In this document: positions 6,052 through 43,173 of the stretch, one piece after another | Layout: each line of letters starts with the position of its first letter | How positions within the stretch are numbered: position 1 is the first letter of the stretch | From: a virus | DNA length: 64,000 nucleotides | Strand: one strand, 5' to 3' | Virus record (IMG/VR): IMGVR_UViG_3300047546_001733 | Span: 1 to 64,000 of that record | Position numbers and translations under genes: made by a program | The notes under the pieces: model-generated | The model's input: the letters and a program-made list of their open reading frames with translations, nothing else | The model's database searches: none | Told to the model about the DNA's origin: nothing

Positions 6052-6184
6052 TGGTGGAGATGGGCGGAATTGAACCGCCGTCCAAAACTCGGTGCGTCAC
6101 TTAAGACGACGGACTTTCACGTCTTTCCATGGGCAGTTATCGCTACTCGTCCATGCCGAACCTTGTCGATACCATGTCATCCCC
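6052..6184 (-). ncRNA. ssrA: Minimal tmRNA (133 nt)
   Basis: tmRNA carries alanine to stalled ribosomes. The 5' end has GGGG.TGA..TGG.ATCGAC and the 3' end has GGACGGCGGTTCAATTCC followed by CATCTCC and ACCA, both close to bacterial tmRNA ends. The 7-bp acceptor stem keeps the G3-U70 pair and A73 that AlaRS reads. The D-like loop and a 9-bp P2 helix (AAGGTTCGG with CCGAGTTTT) follow. Inside P2 are only about 60 nt forming two hairpins (CATGG/CCATG and AAGACG/CGTCTT), where bacterial tmRNAs have about 270 nt with a tag frame and pseudoknots. No frame ends in a normal AA degron; the best-placed resume codon would give Ala-His-Gly-Lys-Thr. It has its own promoter 10 nt upstream. Confidence 0.85.
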
Positions 6185-6194
6185 TTACTCTCTT

Positions 6195-6239
6195 ATTATA
6201 ACACAGACCACACCAAAGTAAAATGAGAATCAGATGAGA
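6195..6239 (-). promoter_or_regulatory. Boxed promoter of the tmRNA
   Basis: TCTCAT, TCTCAT, 22 nt, TGT-TATAAT; both boxes perfect. Confidence 0.8.
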
Positions 6240-6614: not shown

Positions 6615-6911
6615 CTATTCCTCTTCTGTTACTGTGATAAGATGGTCGGGGTATACTGTGCATTGTAAACAATCGCAACCGCAACAATCAGAGGTATCTA
6701 CCTCGATGCTCTTACCACGGCGATACCCATACATGAAGATAACGCACTCACGAGCCGAGCCGGTGAAATAGCCGTAATCAGAAAAGTAATCGTGCTCGTC
6801 GTTCTTTTTCATGATACGGTAGCGCACTTTTCCATCACCTGGGCTATACGTCTTGACCATCAATGTCGGATGTCCGTTCATCATCATCATCAATTCACGC
6901 TTGGCGTTCAT
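6615..6911 (-). CDS. Hypothetical Cys-rich phage protein, 98 aa
   Basis: Not recognised. A run of four Met near residues 8-11 and a compact cysteine cluster (CCGCDCLQC) around residues 76-84 that could bind zinc or Fe-S. First gene of its unit. Confidence 0.65.
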   Translation of the reverse strand: MNAKRELMMMMNGHPTLMVKTYSPGDGKVRYRIMKKNDEHDYFSDYGYFTGSARECVIFMYGYRRGKSIEVDTSDCCGCDCLQCTVYPDHLITVTEEE

Positions 6912-6941
6912 CGTGTTCCTCTTTCTCTCGATTACATATGT

Positions 6942-6986
6942 ATTATACCATGGATTTTTGAATTTTAAAATGAGAATTAGATGAGA
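6942..6986 (-). promoter_or_regulatory. Boxed promoter
   Basis: TCTCAT, TCTCAT, 22 nt, TGG-TATAAT; drives the 98- and 109-aa genes. Confidence 0.8.
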
Positions 6987-7018
6987 GGTTTAGGGGGTAG
7001 GGGGTCCCCCTGCCCCGC

Positions 7019-7258
7019 CTACTCCCACTCTAATGTGTTAGTGGCAGGGTTGAAGTACCGAATTGTTTCGCCCCACTCCATACGTGAAATAGGACGTTTC
7101 AACGGGCAAGAAATGCGATACCGACCATCTTGCATCTTACGGACACTAAAGTCACGCAAGCGTTGACCAAAGAATTTCATTGTTTTGCGGTCAAAGAAGT
7201 ACGGTTCATTCTCTGCTACAAGGTACTTAATGCGGTAGATTGTCATGCGTTGTGCCAT
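7019..7258 (-). CDS. Hypothetical phage protein, 79 aa
   Basis: Not recognised; basic, beta-rich. AAGGAG lies 6 nt upstream of the ATG at 7258; the ATG at 7273 precedes that site and is unlikely. Single-gene unit. Confidence 0.65.
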   Translation of the reverse strand: MAQRMTIYRIKYLVAENEPYFFDRKTMKFFGQRLRDFSVRKMQDGRYRISCPLKRPISRMEWGETIRYFNPATNTLEWE

Positions 7259-12651: not shown

Positions 12652-12903
12652 TTACACCTGCACAATGTGCGCTTTAGATGTAACCGTATCACGAACAGCC
12701 ACGGAATGAACAGTACCGCCATGAGTAGACGTAACGAACACGTCCAAAGAATCCACCAACGGGAACATCGAGAACAGGAAGGAAGCCTCATCACGGACTA
12801 CTTCCATCAAGAAAACAAACTCGCCGAACGTGCACACATCTTGACCAAACTCGGCAAATGTCTTCTCACCACCAGCAAGGCGAACGGTCACAAAATCAGT
12901 CAT
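12652..12903 (-). CDS. 83-aa phage protein, paralog C
   Basis: Third member of the small beta-rich family; GGT-H-S-AV near the end matches paralog A. The ATG at 12903 has AAAGGG upstream; the longer frame would cross the promoter. Confidence 0.65.
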   Translation of the reverse strand: MTDFVTVRLAGGEKTFAEFGQDVCTFGEFVFLMEVVRDEASFLFSMFPLVDSLDVFVTSTHGGTVHSVAVRDTVTSKAHIVQV

Positions 12904-12933
12904 GGCAAGCCCTTTCTCTTGTCTTACAGGTAA

Positions 12934-12978
12934 ATTATACCACAAATGAGCAACGTTGAACATGAGAATTAGATGAGA
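12934..12978 (-). promoter_or_regulatory. Boxed promoter
   Basis: TCTCAT, TCTCAT, 22 nt, TGG-TATAAT; drives paralog C and the CPCC copy 2. Confidence 0.8.
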
Positions 12979-16202: not shown

Positions 16203-16583
16203 CTCACGAGGAGCAAGGGAGTACGGAATGACCAGCGATAGCAAAAGTGTACCAGTGAAATAGGAAAAAAAGAGTGCACACGCTTCCATTGGTACAAAAC
16301 TTGTCGTATCAAAGTATGCAAGAAGAATACCGGCTACCACCGTATACCGAGTAAATAAAAACGGTACTTGAAGTAAAAAAAGAGGGTCACTCTGGTAGTC
16401 TGGTAGCCAGTCATACACTAGCGCATAGTAAACCGAGAACCCTGTAAGAAGAAGGGATGCGACGAGGATGCTATAAGTTGATATTCCCCCACCGTAGACA
16501 AAAGCGAGAAGGTGATTGCTGTATCGCTCGTATTGCGTAGTAATAAATCTTGTAATTGCCCACGCATTCCAGTTTCGTTCCAT
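16194..16583 (-). CDS. Hypothetical membrane protein, 129 aa
   Basis: Three hydrophobic helices (roughly residues 36-58, 66-90, 102-122) after a polar N-terminus. Overlaps the VanW-like gene by 166 nt in another frame. The start is uncertain: AGGA lies 12 nt from the ATG at 16583 and no better start exists before the first helix. Function unknown. Confidence 0.5.
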   Translation of the reverse strand: MERNWNAWAITRFITTQYERYSNHLLAFVYGGGISTYSILVASLLLTGFSVYYALVYDWLPDYQSDPLFLLQVPFLFTRYTVVAGILLAYFDTTSFVPMEACALFFSYFTGTLLLSLVIPYSLAPREYP

Positions 16584-16990
16584 ATCGAGACGTTGTCCTG
16601 CCTTTCTACCCGTAATAACGGGGTACTGTGAATTACAAAGGTACGCTCAAGTCCAAGTTTTCGTGCTAACTCCGCATATCGAGATGCGACATCACACCAC
16701 CCACCCCCATACACGCCGTATACAGTCACCAGTTGATACCGGTCTGGGTGACCTACCGCTTCGTTAAACGACCATTCCTCACCCGGCTGTATGGTAAATT
16801 GAGACAGGGCGGGCAGGATAGCCTCAATGTTATGGTCAATCCCCGACCCTTTCGGAATAGGGGTTGCCGTTACTGAATGCGTATGTGGGAGAATACTCAC
16901 CACAAATAAACTAAGGAAACAGAAGGCGAAGAATATCAACCGTGGGCGTAAAGTGAATGTCTGAGCATCCATACGTCTTAGAAAATTCAC
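16418..16990 (-). CDS. VanW-like secreted protein, 190 aa
   Basis: N-terminal membrane segment or signal peptide (about residues 17-37), then the VanW-type core: an FNE.VG strand-turn near residue 78, GVYGGGWCDVASR, and the late NETGMRGQLQDLLLRNTSD strand pair. VanW proteins are of unknown biochemistry, first noted near vancomycin resistance genes, and many are cell-wall linked. GTG start with TTGGAG 7 nt upstream; it overlaps the preceding gene by 80 nt. Confidence 0.65.
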   Translation of the reverse strand: MNFLRRMDAQTFTLRPRLIFFAFCFLSLFVVSILPHTHSVTATPIPKGSGIDHNIEAILPALSQFTIQPGEEWSFNEAVGHPDRYQLVTVYGVYGGGWCDVASRYAELARKLGLERTFVIHSTPLLRVERQDNVSIWNETGMRGQLQDLLLRNTSDTAITFSLLSTVGEYQLIASSSHPFFLQGSRFTMR

Positions 16991-17687: not shown

Positions 17688-18842
17688 TTACTGACCGTCA
17701 ATGCCCTTCAACAACTGTGTCTGATACCATACGGTCTTCGTGTCACCAGTTGCACCTGCGGGAATAAATGTACTTCCATCCTTGTACATCAACGGACCAG
17801 TCCACAAATTCAAGCCGTCCTTAAGTGCGGTAAGGAACATTCCAAGTGACTTTGTTTGTGTTAGACCAGCACCCATCATAAATCCAATACCGCTCGTGTC
17901 ATGATTGTTCAAGTCAGCGAAGTTTGGACCAAACAAGACAAAACCGGGCTTCCATGTTCCTGCGATGTGTGCTTGTACCATCTTCTTGTATTCGGGGTAC
18001 CAGTTAAAGTATGGTACGCCAATACACGGGGCGGGACCCTTATCACACGCTCCCTTAAAGTCATAGGGAATACTCTTGACTGCCTTACCGCTTGCGTGTG
18101 CCTTTGCAACTTCTGTGACAACTTCGGGTGTGTCAATACCTGACATAATCACATCATACCCTTGCGTAATGTAATCGTTAATCACCAACGTTGGGTCAAG
18201 AGTTACACCCGGGATGTTGAACCAGAATCCAATCCACTTGACCGAGAACCGAAGTAGTGCTGGGTCTTGTGCTTTGTAGGATGTCCAACAGTATTGTGCA
18301 CCCAAATAAGCGGCATTTACCAAACGCCGAGTTTCGTCGTTAATCAGGGGACCAACATAAGCAATCTTCCCTGTGTTCGACTCCAGAGCCGCCGCACACC
18401 CGGCAATCATCTTCCCATACTCCATTTGCCCCATCATGTTACCAAGATTTGCCGGTGCCTTACCGGTCATTACGTCGTCACCTGATGCGTGCAAGAAAGA
18501 TACGTTGGGGTAATTAACTGCCGCCTCTCGAATGCTGTCTTTAAAGTCATCCGAATTAGCGATAATCATGGTCGCCCCTTGGGAAATAAGTTCGCTGGCT
18601 ACCTTTTCTGCGCTGACGTTGGGTCGGTCGGCTGGATTCACCTTGTCAACGTAAATAAATGTTACGTTCTCTTCCGCTTCGACTTGCTTCATCGCCTCAT
18701 AATGGGCTTGGCTCCAGCCACCGTCGTTCTTTGGACCAACCAGAATCATACCAATTGTAGGTTTCTGCGCTTCTACTGGCGCACCACATGATGCAAGCAT
18801 AAGCACTGCAAATGCAAGCAACGCAAATTTCCAAACTGACAT
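17688..18842 (-). CDS. BMP-family substrate-binding lipoprotein, 384 aa
   Basis: Lipoprotein signal with lipobox LASC (Cys19), so exported and lipid-anchored. The body matches the BMP/PnrA group of ABC-transporter binding proteins: IGMILVGPKNDGGWSQAH start, a TMIIANSDDFKDSI region,  YPNVSFLHASG, and GYDVIMSGIDTP in the second lobe. Known members bind nucleosides or related nutrients. No permease or ATPase gene is in the window, so it would have to feed a host transporter, or serve as a surface decoy or receptor blocker. It has its own consensus promoter and a hairpin in its leader (TAGCAC/GTGCTA). Full length for the family, so it looks intact. Confidence 0.8.
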   Translation of the reverse strand: MSVWKFALLAFAVLMLASCGAPVEAQKPTIGMILVGPKNDGGWSQAHYEAMKQVEAEENVTFIYVDKVNPADRPNVSAEKVASELISQGATMIIANSDDFKDSIREAAVNYPNVSFLHASGDDVMTGKAPANLGNMMGQMEYGKMIAGCAAALESNTGKIAYVGPLINDETRRLVNAAYLGAQYCWTSYKAQDPALLRFSVKWIGFWFNIPGVTLDPTLVINDYITQGYDVIMSGIDTPEVVTEVAKAHASGKAVKSIPYDFKGACDKGPAPCIGVPYFNWYPEYKKMVQAHIAGTWKPGFVLFGPNFADLNNHDTSGIGFMMGAGLTQTKSLGMFLTALKDGLNLWTGPLMYKDGSTFIPAGATGDTKTVWYQTQLLKGIDGQ

Positions 18843-23066: not shown

Positions 23067-25676
23067 TTACCTCACTGTTGTATTACTTACTGGTTTTGCG
23101 AGAATGGGTAACACTGACTGAGAAACTGCTGTTTTACCTCGTAGCGCATAAATAAAACACAAGTAACTTGCAAAGATATGGTCATCGTCAGAGGCACCAA
23201 CACCCCGTTCATTCATGATGTAGTAGTGGTCATTTCCGGTGATACGTTTCTGACGAGTAAGTCGCTCTAACTGACTTACACCCTCAGTGTCTATCTCAGA
23301 AAATAAGAGCGTACCCTCTGAGACCATTCGTGCGATTTCCTTCGAACCCCAACTGCGAAATACCTCAGTAAGTTCAGTATCGTCGTCTGTTCTACCAACT
23401 GACACACGCTCATTAAAAAGCACAGGAATAATTCTTTCAGCATATTTGTAAACAGTATATTCCTCCCGACTACAAAGTGATTGGTAGATACCCGCACCAC
23501 CACCACCTGCGCCTACGTCAATTGCAATCTTTGTGGGATTATAAAACTGAGTAAGGTAATGGATAATTGACTCTTGTTCAGGATAATCAATCTTAGTAAT
23601 TCGGTATCGTACAAGTGTAATATATTTATTATTCTTCGCCGCAACCACCTGTATAACGGTTGGGTCTGAAAATCCAGTGTCTATAGAAAAAATAACATAA
23701 TCATAACCAGTAACTTTATGTAACTTTAGTACGTCCTTAAATGACTTCCCCTTTAGTTTATCATTGTTAGAAAAACGATAACTAAAAAAATCAACCTGCT
23801 CAAGGGTAAATGCGTCTCTAGGAATTACTTGAAAACTTGCTGACCCATGACGACCAAGTACAAGTTGTTGAAAAATGTCTTCCTCGATACCTCCGTACTT
23901 GCGGAGTGCGTCATTCCAGTCATCTAGTGTAAAGTATGGATTGTTTGGTGACGGGATGCGATACTTTTTATACTTTGGGCGACGGATGTCTAGGTCGTAA
24001 AGCGCACTGTTTCGTAATCCGTTAGGTACACCACAGTAAATTTCCTGTATCTTTGGTTCCCACGTATTTAGTGTAGGCTGGAGTTGATTAAAAGCGGTCA
24101 TGGGAAACAACTGCATCTCATCGCCAGCAATACGTGGAATATGTAAACCTACTAAGTTATTACTTTCTTTTGTACCCGCAATACGGGCATTAAACCGGTG
24201 ATTTCGCGAGCCAAACTTGAAATCTAGCGTACCTTTCGAGCGATTAATGTTATTACCCAGAAAGTCTTTTAGTAACGGGCTTGTAGTAAATTTAAGTACA
24301 AGTCTGTCAAGTAACGGTGTTAACTGATTTGAGTTTGGGGTTACAAGAAGTTGTTCAGACGTTTTTGGGAATTCAATGTCATTGTTAACAATCTGGTAAG
24401 TCAGTAAGTCTTCAATAATCACCGAATTATGCACAACAATATAGTTAGAAATATACGTCTCGTCAGTATAAACGTGTACTGCATAAGTGGGCATATTGTA
24501 GGAACGACTTTTCCTGTGCTCAATCGCCTCCCAACGTATATTATCTGGTGGTTCTACGTTACTAAGGTCTAGGTTGACTTTAATACCAGGTACAGTGAAT
24601 GTAGACCAGAAGCGTAGTGCATTTTCTTTATCTAGCGTGGTTATTTCCCAGATAGAAAAGTCGCCGGTATATCCGTGGGTTTTTTGTACAACATCACCAG
24701 TCTTTTTTCTGGTTGTGCTTATACCAAAGTATAACAAAATTTCTTGAAACTCTTTTGTAAAATTTTCGTTTGGTACTCTCAGAGATACTTCGGTACTTGA
24801 GAAAGCACCATACTGAGCAAAAACTGCCTCTAGAAAAACTTTAATATTCTCGAGACGTTGAGTTTTTAAAAAGTCTAAATTTTGTTTCTTGCGTCCGTTG
24901 CTTTTTGTGTTAATACCACACTCACGCCACAATTGACGAATGTAGTGCCGTGTCTGCCCAGTTTTAATGCGGTCGAGATAATACTTACCATCCTCAATTC
25001 GTAAATTAAGAAACATATTCTTAGCAATAAATTCGAGTTCTTCTGCAACTTGTTTAAACCGTGGTTTGATTCCCATATATCCAATGACCTTTAGGTCGTT
25101 GAGAATATCATAACCCATCGCACGTAATTCAAACCATGAGAATGTATTTAATACGCAGTGGTCAGTTGGTAAAATGTTTGTGACTGCAACTAAGTCGCCC
25201 ACAACCAAGTCACCTGCAAGTACAAAGCCACGAGGCGTAAGTATCGGATGGTTATACGTACATTCAATTTCTTGAGTAGCTGTTTTAAATTTATGTAACT
25301 TTGCCCATTTATCCTTTGTAATAGTAGCCCGCCGCTGTTTAAATTTACCGTCGGTGGAATACGCATAAGTAACAAAAGAGTCTTTACGCAATAATTCACC
25401 GATAGTTTTAAAGCCCTCAGTGGTATATACCGTGGACGATGTTGGCTGACATTTACCAATTGAGCGACCGCCGGTGATAACAATATGTTTATTTTGGTCT
25501 GTAAGAATTTCGCGTTGGTATGGGCGGTGCTTAAATTCATCTGATGACCAGTTATTTTTATTCATGTCCCCGTTATTTGTTGAGCGAAGGAATTCACTAA
25601 ACCACACAGGGTCTTCTATAATCTCGAGTAAGGCTAACTCCGATTCATCAATTTTCTTCTGTAGAGCCATCCTCAT
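23067..25676 (-). CDS. terL: Large terminase subunit with intein, 869 aa
   Basis: DNA-packaging motor. After removal of a 342-residue intein (76-417) the mature protein is 527 aa. The intein splits the Walker A motif: GGRSIGK directly before it and Ser418 directly after. IAGDEMQLF is the Walker B region; the C-terminal RNase H-fold nuclease shows FSIDTGFSDPT, AIDVGAGGGG and SDDDHIFA with the expected acidic residues. Motor activity therefore depends on splicing. Overlaps the upstream gene by 29 nt. Confidence 0.9.
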   Translation of the reverse strand: MRMALQKKIDESELALLEIIEDPVWFSEFLRSTNNGDMNKNNWSSDEFKHRPYQREILTDQNKHIVITGGRSIGKCQPTSSTVYTTEGFKTIGELLRKDSFVTYAYSTDGKFKQRRATITKDKWAKLHKFKTATQEIECTYNHPILTPRGFVLAGDLVVGDLVAVTNILPTDHCVLNTFSWFELRAMGYDILNDLKVIGYMGIKPRFKQVAEELEFIAKNMFLNLRIEDGKYYLDRIKTGQTRHYIRQLWRECGINTKSNGRKKQNLDFLKTQRLENIKVFLEAVFAQYGAFSSTEVSLRVPNENFTKEFQEILLYFGISTTRKKTGDVVQKTHGYTGDFSIWEITTLDKENALRFWSTFTVPGIKVNLDLSNVEPPDNIRWEAIEHRKSRSYNMPTYAVHVYTDETYISNYIVVHNSVIIEDLLTYQIVNNDIEFPKTSEQLLVTPNSNQLTPLLDRLVLKFTTSPLLKDFLGNNINRSKGTLDFKFGSRNHRFNARIAGTKESNNLVGLHIPRIAGDEMQLFPMTAFNQLQPTLNTWEPKIQEIYCGVPNGLRNSALYDLDIRRPKYKKYRIPSPNNPYFTLDDWNDALRKYGGIEEDIFQQLVLGRHGSASFQVIPRDAFTLEQVDFFSYRFSNNDKLKGKSFKDVLKLHKVTGYDYVIFSIDTGFSDPTVIQVVAAKNNKYITLVRYRITKIDYPEQESIIHYLTQFYNPTKIAIDVGAGGGGAGIYQSLCSREEYTVYKYAERIIPVLFNERVSVGRTDDDTELTEVFRSWGSKEIARMVSEGTLLFSEIDTEGVSQLERLTRQKRITGNDHYYIMNERGVGASDDDHIFASYLCFIYALRGKTAVSQSVLPILAKPVSNTTVR
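24426..25451 (-). mobile_element. Intein in terminase P-loop, decayed homing endonuclease
   Basis: 342 residues, first Cys, last His-Asn, followed by Ser: all four splicing residues are present. N-terminal block CQPTSSTVYTTEG, block B TYNHPILTPRG, C-terminal block YAVHVYTDETYISNYIVVHN. The middle has the size and pattern of a LAGLIDADG endonuclease (FLEAVFAQYGAF... then EFQEILLYFGIS), but the Asp expected in the LFDADG position is replaced, so cutting is probably lost while splicing is kept. Confidence 0.9.
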
Positions 25677-33723: not shown

Positions 33724-34671
33724 ATGGATAACAAAGAACTACAAAAGGCGATTGCTGAAACAGCAAAGACCGCTGGTCAGAGTGCCACTAAGCGTTCAGC
33801 TTACGCTGAGTTGATGATTGAGCTTGTGGAGCCTAATCACCTAACCTTAGAACTCTTCCGAACATTCATGCCAGCACGCCAAGCAAATCTAGGTGATGTA
33901 CCTGTAAAGCGTGTGCGTCGTGGGCGATACCCAGTGCAGAGTATGGTGCCCAACACTGCTCACTTGGTTGCTAACCCACCGGATGTGCAGGATTACCACA
34001 CGTTCATCTTTGACCGCTTGATTACTGGTGTGCGTGAGTCAACGTGGAATCTTGAAAACAACCCAATTACGACAACAGAGAATATCCGTAACGGTATGCG
34101 GGCTGACCTCAGCGATGCAGTAATCGCTAAGATTTTCTCACTACTTTCGACAACATGGAATGCTACCGACACACCTTCAAATTATTCGACCACTTCGGCA
34201 CTTACATACACTCAACTGGACACCATGATTGAGAACGTTATGTATACCGCAGGTGATGTGAAGGCTATTATCGGTACAAGACGTGCCGTGCGTGACATCT
34301 ACGAATTCGCAGGTTTCCGTGAGTACGCCTATGCCGCAGGTGGGCAGAATAACATCGCTTACCCAGTGAATCCTTTCCTACTTGAATACCTAAACACAAA
34401 CAGAGTATCAGTCTATAAGGGCGTGCCCATTATCGAACTTCCTCAGGTGTTTAGAAACAGACTACCCAATCTACGTGAGGCACTTATCCCTGAGGATAAG
34501 ATTCTAGTGATTGGCGCAGATGCTGGTGAAATTTTGATGTACGGTGACATTACGTACCAAGATTATACTGATATGACTGTTCAACCTGCTGACTACGTTC
34601 TTCATGGATGGATGCAGTATGGTTTGGTTGTGGATATGCCCGAAAACATTGGTGTAATTAAACTTACTTAA
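33724..34671 (+). CDS. Major capsid protein, 315 aa
   Basis: HK97-fold capsid subunit by size, position and pattern: helical N-arm, ...PVKRVRRGRYPV..., a spine-helix region, and a C-terminal strand ending MPENIGVIKLT typical of these proteins. A hairpin after its stop would favour high expression of this gene over downstream ones. Confidence 0.75.
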   Translation: MDNKELQKAIAETAKTAGQSATKRSAYAELMIELVEPNHLTLELFRTFMPARQANLGDVPVKRVRRGRYPVQSMVPNTAHLVANPPDVQDYHTFIFDRLITGVRESTWNLENNPITTTENIRNGMRADLSDAVIAKIFSLLSTTWNATDTPSNYSTTSALTYTQLDTMIENVMYTAGDVKAIIGTRRAVRDIYEFAGFREYAYAAGGQNNIAYPVNPFLLEYLNTNRVSVYKGVPIIELPQVFRNRLPNLREALIPEDKILVIGADAGEILMYGDITYQDYTDMTVQPADYVLHGWMQYGLVVDMPENIGVIKLT

Positions 34672-38229: not shown

Positions 38230-41200
38230 ATGGCTGGTATAAATATACCCATATCATTTACTACTGCTGGTGCAGAGGATGTTTTAAGAGCAATTTCTTC
38301 AATAGAAACGAAGTTAAAATCATTGTCTGTACCCTCCTCATCAAAATTATTTGGTGGCGGTATTGACAAGGCATTTCCTGCGGCAACAACAATTACCGGT
38401 GGTATACTTGATGCAAGCGGACAAACGGGTGAAAAAAGAAAACAACTCTTTGATATACTTAGTGCGTCCAGTACAAGAACACTGAGCACTGGTGAACTCT
38501 CTCAAGTTGAAACCCTATTAAAAACGCTCTCTGGAAAACTTAGTGCTACCCAGAAAAAATTCCTTGAAGAGGTTATACAAAATCAAAAGAGCACTATAAA
38601 TTCTTTTGTAAGAGCCGCAGAAGCCGGTGGTTTTTCAGTTTTAGAAGGAAAAGATGGTAAGCGTAAACTAAACTTTGAAAATTTAAAAAAGGCTATTTTA
38701 GCAAATATACAAAGTTTACGTGAGGCGTATGTATTAAGTGAAAAAGACATCGCTGAAATAGACGCACTCATCTCAAAAAATGACACCGCCGGTATTATAG
38801 GATTACTCGAGAAAGTACGAAGTTCTGACCGTATAACTGAACGACTTAAAAATGACCCAAAGTCAGGTCAAGACCCTCAGTTTAATCAAGACATAGCCAA
38901 TTTCAAAGCAAAACTTACCCCTCAATCACGTAAGGCTTTTCAAAAGGCACTTGACGAGATAATAGACGCTTTTCTTGCAGAGGCTATTAAAGCAGCTAAA
39001 GAAACAAAAGCAGACCCAGCTACTAAACCTAAAAGAAGCGAACGCAAGAAAGTAGCAAAAGAAGTACCGGTAGCTGAAGAAGAAACGCCGGTAGTAACAC
39101 CACCAGAACCCAAACGCCGTCCAAAAAGAATAGACTCTTCTACTTCTGGAGTAAGATACGGTAGGTTTGATACTTCAGGAATGGGTGGTGGTGGTAGTGG
39201 TGGTGGTATTGTTCCACCCACAGGTGGTGGTGGTTACAATTTTGACGGCGGCGAGATTGAAGATTATTTTGACCGTGTTCGAAGACGCTTCGGAAGAATC
39301 ACAGCCAGTTTTCAAGCCGCTAATGCAGTAGCAAGAGATAGCCTTCGCACAATTACACCCGAATCAGTTGAGGAGTTCTTAACTGTTTTTCGAAAAAACC
39401 TTGTACAATTTCGTCAGGGAACTGAGCAAATTCTTGTTGAGGAAGGACCACTTCGGGACTTAGACCCCGAAGTAAGTCGTCGTTTATCCGAAAGAATTGT
39501 GGGTGTGGCAACCTCAGCAGAGTTTGGTAATCTTAGTCAAGAACAACAGGCTCAAAGAGCAAGAGTACTGGGAAGAGAGTCACTTGACGAATTCTTTCCT
39601 GATTTGGACTCTGAAACTGCTGAACGTGCACTTAGGGTCTTTAGTCAACAAGTTCTAGCAACGACAAAAGAGTTTAAGGTTGTTACAGAAACTATTGACA
39701 ATATTAATGCTGAACTTTCAAGAACTGCAAGGATTGAGGCGGAGGAGTTAATTCAACAAGGTCGTGCTACAGGAGACCAACGATATTTTGAAGAAGCCCG
39801 CCGCCGTAACCGTCAGAGAAGAGTTCTTTTTGTTGGTAAAGACTTAGAAGTACAATCTAAAGCCGAAGAAGACTTAACAGATGAGGAACGCGCTTCTCTA
39901 CCATCTAAAGTAAACTACGATATTGAGTCAAATAAAAGAACAGTAAATCGTGGTATTCTACAAGCGATGGGCAGACCAAGGGGTATTTTTGAACAGGTAG
40001 CTACGTTAGGTGGGCGAGTTGCGGCTATTTTCTCGTTAGTACAGTTTACAATTGGTAACGCAGTGATGCAGTTACAGCAGTTCACTGAACAAGCAAATCA
40101 ACTCGAACGTGTTTCAGCAACAGTTGGAGCTTTAGCAGGAAATTTTGAAAGTTTTTCTGGTGCATTGGACTTAGCGGCTACACAGCAACGTAAGTTTGGT
40201 GGTACTCTAGAAGAAAACCTACAAGGTCTTACGTCGCTTATACCTGTGTCAAAGCGGTACAACGCAGACTTAGAACAGTTAGATAATATTGCACGCAGAC
40301 TCGCTATTGTTGACCCATTACAGGGATTTAGCGGGGCGGCAATTGCTCTTAAAGAATTCTTTTCAGGTGACATTACATCCCTATCCCGTAGATTTGAAAT
40401 TGACCGTGCCACACTTAATAGCATTAAAGAAGCCGGCGATAAAACAGCGCAGTTACAGAAACTAGACGAAGTTCTTAATAAACTTGGTATTTCCAATGAA
40501 GTGCTAAATGCAAGAACACAAACAACTGCCGCAGTTTTTGATAGATTAGGTGGAACAACATCTAACCTAAGTGCATCTTTTGGCTTCTTAATTCAAGAGG
40601 CAATTGCCCCGAGTGCAGGAGCACTAGACCGCTGGCTTGGTCAATGGTCATACTTGACTGCTCAGATAGTAGAAGACAAAGCACTTCTTTTAGAAGTTTC
40701 TAAGGGATTTGCTGAAATAAACAAAATAGTCCGTGAGTACCTAAATCTCCCCGTTGGTGACCGCACTGTAAAGCAACTAGAGGAAATTCAAATTGCTCAG
40801 AATGAAGTTATACGAAAGTATAACGAGGCAAGAGATACCCAAGTTAAGTTTATTAAAGATGCAGAAACCGCCCTCCAGCTAGCACGAATAGCCGCCGAAG
40901 GTGGACCAAACAACATTTTAGCAGACTTAGCAAATGTTTATAGCGAGGATGAAGTCTTTGGATTAGTTGGGATGGATGACCGCCAGTTCCGCACAATGGT
41001 TTTACAAGCCGAGGCTTTGACATCCTTAAGAGATGAACTGATTGGCTGGTTAAATACTCCTTGGGGTTTACAAGGGGCTATTATTAATGAAAATTTTAGT
41101 CCGGAACAAAGTGCCTTACTTGTAGAAATACTTGACCAGCTGGTAACCAAAAGAAATGACCTGAGTGAGGCTGACCGTGAAACATTATTTGCAGACGTTA

Positions 41201-43173
41201 CTCAAGCTACTGAAGACTTAGTTAATCTGAATCTAACCGCAAAAGAGTATCTAGACGTTTTAATAAAAATTAGAGATACAAACTACGAGATAGAACAGAA
41301 TAAGCCCCGAGCGGACCCTGAATACATTGGTGGTGGTGGTGGTAATTCAGACGATGCTGGGTACGGAAAAAGTGCTACTTTACGAAGTAGAATTGGTTCC
41401 GAAATTAAGGCAGTTAACGATGCAATAAGAGAACAACGCAGGTTACTAGAAGACTTAGAAGACGACGGTGGCGAAATGTCACCAGAACTCAAAGCGTTGA
41501 TGGACAATCTTGATGCTCTTAATGTAAAAGTTGGAGATTACACAAGTAGCCTTGAACTAGCAAAAAAGACTGTTGAAGGAATTAACGAATTAACAGCAAA
41601 ACAAACTCAAGCGCAATTAGAGCAGTTTGCAATAGCTCAGGGTTTAGGTTCTGAGTACTCCGCACAGGCTACCGCTAAGATGGACGAATTTAAACAAACC
41701 TCAGAATATTTAAAGTCTGAAGAATTTGAAAGATTTGCCCTTCTTGCTCGTGTGAGAGAAGCACTCAAACTACAGCAAGGTCTTGCATTTGAGCAGAATA
41801 AGTCTGTAAGTGCTATTACACTGATGAAAAATAATATGCTTGGGTATAATATTACTTTTAAAGAAGCCGTAGAGTTAGCAAAAGACTTTCAAAATTCCCT
41901 CAGAAGTCTTGCTACAGGAACTTTATTAAGTAAATTATCCCTAGAAGACCAATTAACCTACCAAACAAATCGCTTATCCCTAACAGGTCCAAATGCACCA
42001 CAGAATCAAGGTGACCTTTTTGACGCACTAAATAGTTCTTTAAACTTGTATTTCCAAAAAACAAATGAAGGACAGAAAAACACCGGAAATAGACTCGTTG
42101 ATATTGCTAAGGACGATGCTGCTCGTCGTCAAGAAATTACCGAGCAGTACAATGAAGATTTGCTTGATATGCAGGAAGACTATGAGAAGAGAAAACTAGA
42201 GTTACTTAAAAATAGTGAGATAGAAAAGCGTCAAGGTAAAGTAGACTTTTATGATACCTTGTTTAATGCAGATAGTTTAACTCCACAACAGATGCAAGAA
42301 GCATCAGCAAAGTACGAACAACTCTTCACAGAAGTCAGTGACTTACGCAATAAAGGTGAGTTTGAAAAAGCAACTGCCCTACTAGAGGCTGGTACATCCC
42401 AGATTGTTAACGAAATTAACTATCAACAGGAAGTAGCAGAAAACCAAAACAAAATAAAAGAAGCTGACGCAGATATTGCAGAACTTCGAAGAGAATACAA
42501 CGAGGCAGATTCCTCAGAAGAACGCCGCTCAATACTACAAAAAATTGAGAAAATAACAAAAGATAAAGAAATTGCAGAAAATCGCATAAAGCAGATTAAT
42601 GAAATTCGCACCCTTCAGATTGATGCAGACAATGAGCGGGTTACGCAAGCACGGAAAAATGAAGATACAATTACAAGTGACTACCTGAAATCTGTAGATG
42701 AGAGAAAACAAGCGTATCTTGATGCACTTGCAGAACAGGACGCCGCCTATAAAAAATCTGTTGATGAGGCAAAATCTCAATTTGACGACATAGGTAGAAA
42801 ATCACTTGTCACACTCACGTTTATTCAAGGTATTTTAAAGTATGCGGACGAAATTCCAAAACTTTTTGAGGCGGCTACTAATGGTACAGCGATGGGTCAG
42901 GATTACTTACTAAAGACTATCGACTATCGTAAGCAAGTACTACTAGACCAAACCCCTGTTGAACTAAGACCATTTCTTGATAAATTTTTTACAAGTGTTG
43001 AGCGATTAGAGCCGGGCTTTGGTCAACAATTAGGTGTTTTGGGGAAGACACTAGAATTGGACAAAACACTACTAGACACTAATCTTAAGCTGTCACTGTT
43101 AAATCAGACACTTACAAGGACAAATGAGATATTCTCCACAATGCCCCTATTTCTACAGAGAGGTAACACGTAA
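38230..43173 (+). CDS. Tape measure protein, 1647 aa
   Basis: Sets tail length; at 1.5 angstrom per residue about 250 nm. Long helical stretches, a Gly-rich linker (about residues 317-340), a hydrophobic stretch near 590-620, then the common TMP segment (QRKFGGTLEENLQGL, ALKEFFSGDITSLSRRF). C-terminal coiled coils. GGAG upstream of the ATG. Confidence 0.9.
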   Translation: MAGINIPISFTTAGAEDVLRAISSIETKLKSLSVPSSSKLFGGGIDKAFPAATTITGGILDASGQTGEKRKQLFDILSASSTRTLSTGELSQVETLLKTLSGKLSATQKKFLEEVIQNQKSTINSFVRAAEAGGFSVLEGKDGKRKLNFENLKKAILANIQSLREAYVLSEKDIAEIDALISKNDTAGIIGLLEKVRSSDRITERLKNDPKSGQDPQFNQDIANFKAKLTPQSRKAFQKALDEIIDAFLAEAIKAAKETKADPATKPKRSERKKVAKEVPVAEEETPVVTPPEPKRRPKRIDSSTSGVRYGRFDTSGMGGGGSGGGIVPPTGGGGYNFDGGEIEDYFDRVRRRFGRITASFQAANAVARDSLRTITPESVEEFLTVFRKNLVQFRQGTEQILVEEGPLRDLDPEVSRRLSERIVGVATSAEFGNLSQEQQAQRARVLGRESLDEFFPDLDSETAERALRVFSQQVLATTKEFKVVTETIDNINAELSRTARIEAEELIQQGRATGDQRYFEEARRRNRQRRVLFVGKDLEVQSKAEEDLTDEERASLPSKVNYDIESNKRTVNRGILQAMGRPRGIFEQVATLGGRVAAIFSLVQFTIGNAVMQLQQFTEQANQLERVSATVGALAGNFESFSGALDLAATQQRKFGGTLEENLQGLTSLIPVSKRYNADLEQLDNIARRLAIVDPLQGFSGAAIALKEFFSGDITSLSRRFEIDRATLNSIKEAGDKTAQLQKLDEVLNKLGISNEVLNARTQTTAAVFDRLGGTTSNLSASFGFLIQEAIAPSAGALDRWLGQWSYLTAQIVEDKALLLEVSKGFAEINKIVREYLNLPVGDRTVKQLEEIQIAQNEVIRKYNEARDTQVKFIKDAETALQLARIAAEGGPNNILADLANVYSEDEVFGLVGMDDRQFRTMVLQAEALTSLRDELIGWLNTPWGLQGAIINENFSPEQSALLVEILDQLVTKRNDLSEADRETLFADVTQATEDLVNLNLTAKEYLDVLIKIRDTNYEIEQNKPRADPEYIGGGGGNSDDAGYGKSATLRSRIGSEIKAVNDAIREQRRLLEDLEDDGGEMSPELKALMDNLDALNVKVGDYTSSLELAKKTVEGINELTAKQTQAQLEQFAIAQGLGSEYSAQATAKMDEFKQTSEYLKSEEFERFALLARVREALKLQQGLAFEQNKSVSAITLMKNNMLGYNITFKEAVELAKDFQNSLRSLATGTLLSKLSLEDQLTYQTNRLSLTGPNAPQNQGDLFDALNSSLNLYFQKTNEGQKNTGNRLVDIAKDDAARRQEITEQYNEDLLDMQEDYEKRKLELLKNSEIEKRQGKVDFYDTLFNADSLTPQQMQEASAKYEQLFTEVSDLRNKGEFEKATALLEAGTSQIVNEINYQQEVAENQNKIKEADADIAELRREYNEADSSEERRSILQKIEKITKDKEIAENRIKQINEIRTLQIDADNERVTQARKNEDTITSDYLKSVDERKQAYLDALAEQDAAYKKSVDEAKSQFDDIGRKSLVTLTFIQGILKYADEIPKLFEAATNGTAMGQDYLLKTIDYRKQVLLDQTPVELRPFLDKFFTSVERLEPGFGQQLGVLGKTLELDKTLLDTNLKLSLLNQTLTRTNEIFSTMPLFLQRGNT

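Follow-up and report, generated by a model that had tools for sequence, protein, structure and literature searches.

Together with SmpB and EF-Tu, the tRNA-like domain (TLD) of tmRNA can enter a stalled ribosome, and rescue then needs a resume template. Versions of the molecule that carry no tag are already on record. The literature that we searched names one tagless phage TLD, that of mycobacteriophage DS6A, as a curiosity, and PMC4131195 and PMC11915505 (citing Mao et al. 2009) state that a DS6A-like TLD-only molecule, chargeable or not, strongly inhibits tmRNA, perhaps through titration of SmpB. Outside phages, tmRNAs lacking a coding sequence have been described in mitochondria and in the plastids of Mallomonadaceae (PMC11915505). 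A tagless phage tmRNA is hence not new in itself; what is new here is a conserved, structured insert carried by such a molecule.

A 133-nt tmRNA gene in a phage genome

The window, by which we mean the whole 64,000-nt stretch of viral DNA analysed (positions 1 to 64,000 of IMG/VR record IMGVR_UViG_3300047546_001733), carries a mini-tmRNA gene of 133 nt, encoded CCA included, at 6052-6184 on the minus strand. An earlier note on this DNA had placed a tmRNA with G3-U70, A73 and a short interior at exactly these positions, and it was right on each count: the Rfam model RF00023, searched with Infernal, spans 6184..6052 from model position 1 to 374, the entire length of the model, with 71.9 bits (E 5e-26) against a gathering cut-off of 47 bits, so that both ends are taken in by a single full-length match. 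It is the only tmRNA match of the Rfam search in the whole 72,156-bp virus record. Nor is the gene a piece of a longer permuted tmRNA, as its two ends are contiguous and not in circularly permuted order, and the permuted two-piece model RF04321 matches the locus only in part, at 36.5 and 12.6 bits, below its cut-off of 47. ARAGORN called neither a tRNA nor a tmRNA at 6052-6184, a blastn search against isolate phages returned short T-arm matches only, and a megablast search with 24 kb returned no match.

All features below lie on the minus strand and are numbered along the RNA and along the window. The acceptor stem P1 has 7 bp, its 5' strand (RNA 1-7, 6178..6184) bearing G3 and its 3' strand (RNA 123-129, 6056..6062) the U of G3-U70, and two of its pairs are changed on both sides among the homologues. 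It is followed by a D-loop-like segment (RNA 8-19, 6166..6177) without a canonical D stem, whose GGUAUCGA signature aligns to the tmRNA consensus and is conserved in the homologues. In the T arm (RNA 106-122, 6063..6079), three pairs have a change on each side. Where a tRNA would have its anticodon arm there is P2 (RNA 20-29, 6156..6165, with RNA 93-102, 6083..6092), a covarying helix that was correctly recognised at the outset and counted as 9 bp; it has 10 standard pairs, plus one loose pair. P1, G3-U70, A73 and the T arm make up an alanine-type TLD, while the D-loop and P2 are those of a tmRNA, and the whole is, like DS6A, a phage-encoded TLD without a tag. The pseudoknots PK1-PK4 are absent, and the approximately 62 nt inside P2 form nested helices. 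The locus is thus a phage mini-tmRNA, with a full alanine-type TLD closed on P2 and a three-way-junction cap that replaces the pseudoknots and the tag frame.

A conserved three-way junction beyond P2

Relatives were sought by pattern scans of IMG/VR, by retrieval of related phages based on RNR, and by Rfam searches of whole records. An inner circle of six members shares the interior of the window RNA: the window itself, three further, diverged sequences of 133 nt (L076, L077 and L100), one of 127 nt (L019) and one of 132 nt (L002); L015/L078 is identical to the window. The four 133-nt sequences align without indels, and pairs of them agree at 48-68 of 83 interior positions. A core pattern scan of genome contigs gave no match; matches to patterns with a relaxed interior turned out on inspection to be 3' ends resembling tRNA arrays or attachment sites, and were rejected.

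Common to the six is a new interior in which P2 leads into a three-way junction formed by the 6-bp helix S2 (RNA 31-36, 6149..6154, with RNA 71-76, 6109..6114) and the hairpin H3 (RNA 77-90, 6095..6108; 4 bp with the loop UUAAGU), the latter covarying and present in all members except the 127-nt one. The S2 arm bears, by the look of its sequence, a probable loop-E (bulged-G) motif, made of an AGUA strand after S2 (RNA 38-41, 6144..6147) and a GAA strand before the 3' strand of S2 (RNA 67-69, 6116..6118), GUA and GAA being invariant in 6/6 members. Beyond it lie the 3-bp helix S3 (RNA 42-44, 6141..6143, with RNA 64-66, 6119..6121), which has standard pairs in all six and in which pair 43-65 changes from C-G to A-U in L019, and a loop of 19-20 nt, which in the 133-nt homologues aligns as the conserved apical loop AUAACUGCCYAYRRNMAGA (RNA 45-63, 6122..6140) and is diverged in L002.

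The earlier note had the interior as merely short, at about 60 nt. Its shortness holds, but it is also structured and covarying. Over P1, P2, S2, S3, H3 and the T arm, 97.2% of the cells are kept in the four 133-nt sequences, with 18 pairs changed on both sides (27 such cells) and compensatory change at every one of the six S2 pairs; none of 500 shuffles did as well, and structures slid along the alignment pair at no more than 49%. RNAalifold, given no structure as input, arrived at the same set of helices and added a 3-bp apical pairing that is doubtful. A covariance model built from these four sequences (R1) scores the L019 and L002 RNAs at 81.8 and 75.8 bits with the interior aligned; both had been left out when the structure was built, and both form 6/6 S2 pairs, for which chance alone would account with a probability of about 0.001-0.002 each. 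We also considered and rejected an H-type pseudoknot in which the 3' arm of S2 would have had a choice of two partners; the four homologues give a nested S2 with all pairs compensated. Folding of the window RNA as a single sequence (z -0.66) was uninformative. The conserved three-way-junction insert, present in at least six phage genomes, is a new domain.

One might suppose instead that the locus is a decayed tmRNA or an attachment-site fragment of the host ssrA gene. Integration often takes place at ssrA, and a number of our pattern matches had a tmRNA-like 3' end alone; but here both ends are present and paired, the length is constant and compensatory changes run throughout, and we regard such an origin as scarcely credible.

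Reading frames within the insert

As the earlier note had it, the RNA combines alanine identity with the lack of a recognisable tag, and the homologues bear this out: no tag frame with its stop is consistent among the six. The short frame singled out there as the only well-placed one, Ala-His-Gly-Lys-Thr (GCC CAU GGA AAG ACG UGA), does exist in the window, where it sits in the apical loop and the 3' strand of S3, but it is not conserved, its stop reading CGA in both L077 and L100 and being lost altogether from L002. In the frame after it, stops are scattered or lacking. What is conserved in the insert is structure and not a reading frame.

Two explanations under which the RNA would still free ribosomes must be weighed at this point. 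The first is trans-translation at work with a tag that is very short or otherwise atypical, AITAHGKT being one example. Two-residue tags are known (PMC11915505), and the window, L076 and L019 have a common frame, (A/E)-I-T-...-T-stop; yet half of the members have lost the stop, the other frame has scattered stops, and the segment lies inside a covarying, closed stem-loop, all of which makes a functional tag highly improbable. The second is rescue without a tag, in which SmpB and the mini-tmRNA would take over the nascent peptide on alanine, an immediate stop codon would follow, and release factors would free the ribosome with Ala alone added. The third frame does offer an immediate UAG, within GUAG, in 6/6 members, of which 5/6 also have UAA in the same frame two codons further on (NGA UAA), and organellar tagless tmRNAs with an SmpB partner exist (PMC11915505). 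The invariant GUA and GAA are, however, better read as a loop-E motif that stacks between the helices S2 and S3, a loop closed by two helices would seem short for threading through the 30S channel, and the TLD-only precedent, according to PMC4131195, inhibits. We therefore consider tagless rescue unlikely, if a good deal less so than a short tag.

Distribution among phages and metagenome-assembled genomes

Terminase relatives are present in the phage group of the window and are absent from the records of L100, L019 and L002, that of L019 being only 28.6 kb long. The insert is therefore probably shared across phage lineages. Within the window phage group the gene is patchy: among records of at least 44 kb, the window record included, 4/11 carry the mini-tmRNA, two of them near-identical, and this patchiness counts against reading the RNA as a decoy, the interpretation that we favour below.

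Around this inner circle lies an outer one, whose mini-tmRNAs measure 81-121 nt and have interiors unlike that of the window RNA; they occur in other phages and on a few contigs of metagenome-assembled genomes (MAGs). All 21 phage or MAG mini-tmRNAs inspected (81-133 nt) retain an intact acceptor stem and T stem as well as G3-U70 and A73; since two of the search patterns left the 3' acceptor strand unconstrained, the U at position 70 is unbiased for members from those scans. Four of five MAGs with a mini-tmRNA also have a longer tmRNA match of 342-390 nt, and some of the contigs with a mini-tmRNA may be binned phage.

Several records deserve mention in their own right. The chromosomal-looking MAG contig CAMZDX010000002.1 (L171, the record behind L147) has a 342-nt tmRNA match at 6709-7050 and two mini-tmRNAs of 112-113 nt at 12849-12960 and from 19939 up to 20051, and this MAG has a further full-length tmRNA match on a different contig. 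An 81-nt mini-tmRNA of the isolate Streptomyces phage pSt2308 (L185:1491-1571, 61 bits) is unannotated in the deposited record. Likewise unannotated are permuted tmRNA genes scoring above threshold in Pseudomonas phage SM1 (L186:1474-1773) and Stenotrophomonas phage BUCTxx99 (L181:1475-1677).

The occurrence of the insert in phages without a related terminase, together with the high conservation of its apical loop, would also suit an arrangement in which the TLD serves only as a scaffold for stability or processing, while the insert acts by binding protein or as an antisense RNA, in a function unrelated to ribosome rescue. Against this, the identity elements of the TLD are all retained, G3-U70 and the D-loop signature included, and the loop matches E. 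coli rRNA within chance, the longest match, of 10 nt, being equalled in 24/300 shuffles. We think such an arrangement improbable, somewhat more so than rescue without a tag.

Genomic neighbourhood

The mini-tmRNA gene is located in a region of small genes, with a gp88/DUF7227-like gene nearby in the window, L177 and L178. A promoter-like TTTACT-16-TATAAT with TG before the -10 (6195..6222, minus strand; 10/12 matches) lies upstream and ends 10 nt short of the 5' end of the RNA, but it comes from a sigma-70-type consensus scan only, is weak alone, and such sites were not found in numbers above those in shuffles. No SmpB gene was found in 23 phage records, and therefore a host partner would be needed.

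Directly downstream of the mini-tmRNA, two of the relatives have a second tRNA-like RNA of 162 nt (L178:6829-6990, equivalent to L076:1638-1799, and L100 at about 199-360), with a 7-bp acceptor, a T arm and ACCA, without G3-U70, and with a long helix resembling P2, followed in this list by an insert that is structured and contains a conserved UCCCGACGGGGA hairpin. Its fold has a z of -2.56 and there is covariation between the two sequences; the Rfam search matched no family there apart from a neighbouring tRNA. Elsewhere in the window, a PnrA/Bmp-like substrate-binding protein (17688-18842, minus strand), possibly a host-derived nutrient-binding gene, is common to ten related phage records, an eleventh having a partial match, and a VanW-like protein is encoded near it (16418-16990, minus strand). 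The middle of a terminase-like protein of 869 aa (23067-25676, minus strand) resembles an intein insertion. As queries, a long tail-region protein (38230-43173) found no relatives and a capsid-region protein (33724-34671) matched nothing among isolate phages.

A putative decoy of ribosome rescue

We propose that the window RNA acts as a phage decoy that makes use of host AlaRS, SmpB and EF-Tu and in this way interferes with trans-translation, and we put the probability of this at roughly 0.58. In the infected cell, host AlaRS would charge the mini-tmRNA, which would bind host SmpB and EF-Tu and then compete with the host's own tmRNA for both SmpB and stalled ribosomes, and truncated proteins might escape tagging as a result. 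The earlier note had left two options, a minimal rescue RNA and a competitor of host tmRNA/SmpB. The second appears to fit better, because a DS6A-like TLD-only molecule is reported to inhibit tmRNA, and interference is also favoured over rescue by the architecture of the insert, since a rigid stem closes off a loop of 19-34 nt, and such a loop would probably not pass through the mRNA channel to serve as a resume template.

Titration as such needs no insert, given that forms of 81-83 nt exist, and the conserved insert of the 133-nt form hence suggests an extra role outside the decoy model. Most likely the loop-E/S2/H3 domain either makes the RNA more stable or provides an additional contact, be it with SmpB, with the 30S subunit or with some other protein. 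Tentatively, one could go further and imagine that phages possess anti-rescue RNAs as a general class, derived from the tmRNA TLD, and that in the present subfamily the horizontally shared loop-E three-way-junction module is a dedicated effector domain, holding the decoy in place on SmpB, on the 30S subunit or on a release factor. Phages would in this way switch off or redirect trans-translation during infection, perhaps as a counter-defence against mRNA-cleaving immunity; we offer this broader scheme as a speculation that is rather doubtful as it stands.

Should the decoy reading hold and the RNA be inhibitory, it would represent an RNA-only viral attack on ribosome rescue; should it turn out to rescue ribosomes, it would show how little of tmRNA suffices.

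Comparison with known systems

With canonical tmRNA as modelled in RF00023, the window RNA has in common P1, G3-U70, the D-loop signature, P2, the T arm and CCA, and it differs in having no PK1-PK4 and no tag and in measuring 133 nt against a 374-position model. It resembles the mitochondrial and Mallomonadaceae plastid tmRNAs in the lack of a tag frame; these are organellar, however, with no sign here that the phage insert is related to them, and the mitochondrial ones co-occur with a targeted SmpB (PMC11915505), a partner gene that we did not find in the phage records. The mini-tmRNAs of the outer circle (among them L031, L034, L149, L016, L030 and Streptomyces phage pSt2308) have, like the window RNA, an alanine-identity TLD and are too small to accommodate a normal mRNA domain, but their interior is a short P2 cap or another fold, and model R1 aligns their TLD alone. 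The closest described counterpart is the TLD-only tmRNA of mycobacteriophage DS6A, likewise phage-encoded and tagless, and with a similar molecule reported to be inhibitory in PMC4131195 and PMC11915505. Whereas DS6A is little more than a TLD, the window RNA continues beyond P2 into some 62 nt of conserved three-way-junction insert, which includes H3 and, probably, a loop-E motif. A curiosity of the DS6A type thereby becomes a recurrent class, one branch of which has a defined and conserved substitute for the mRNA domain.
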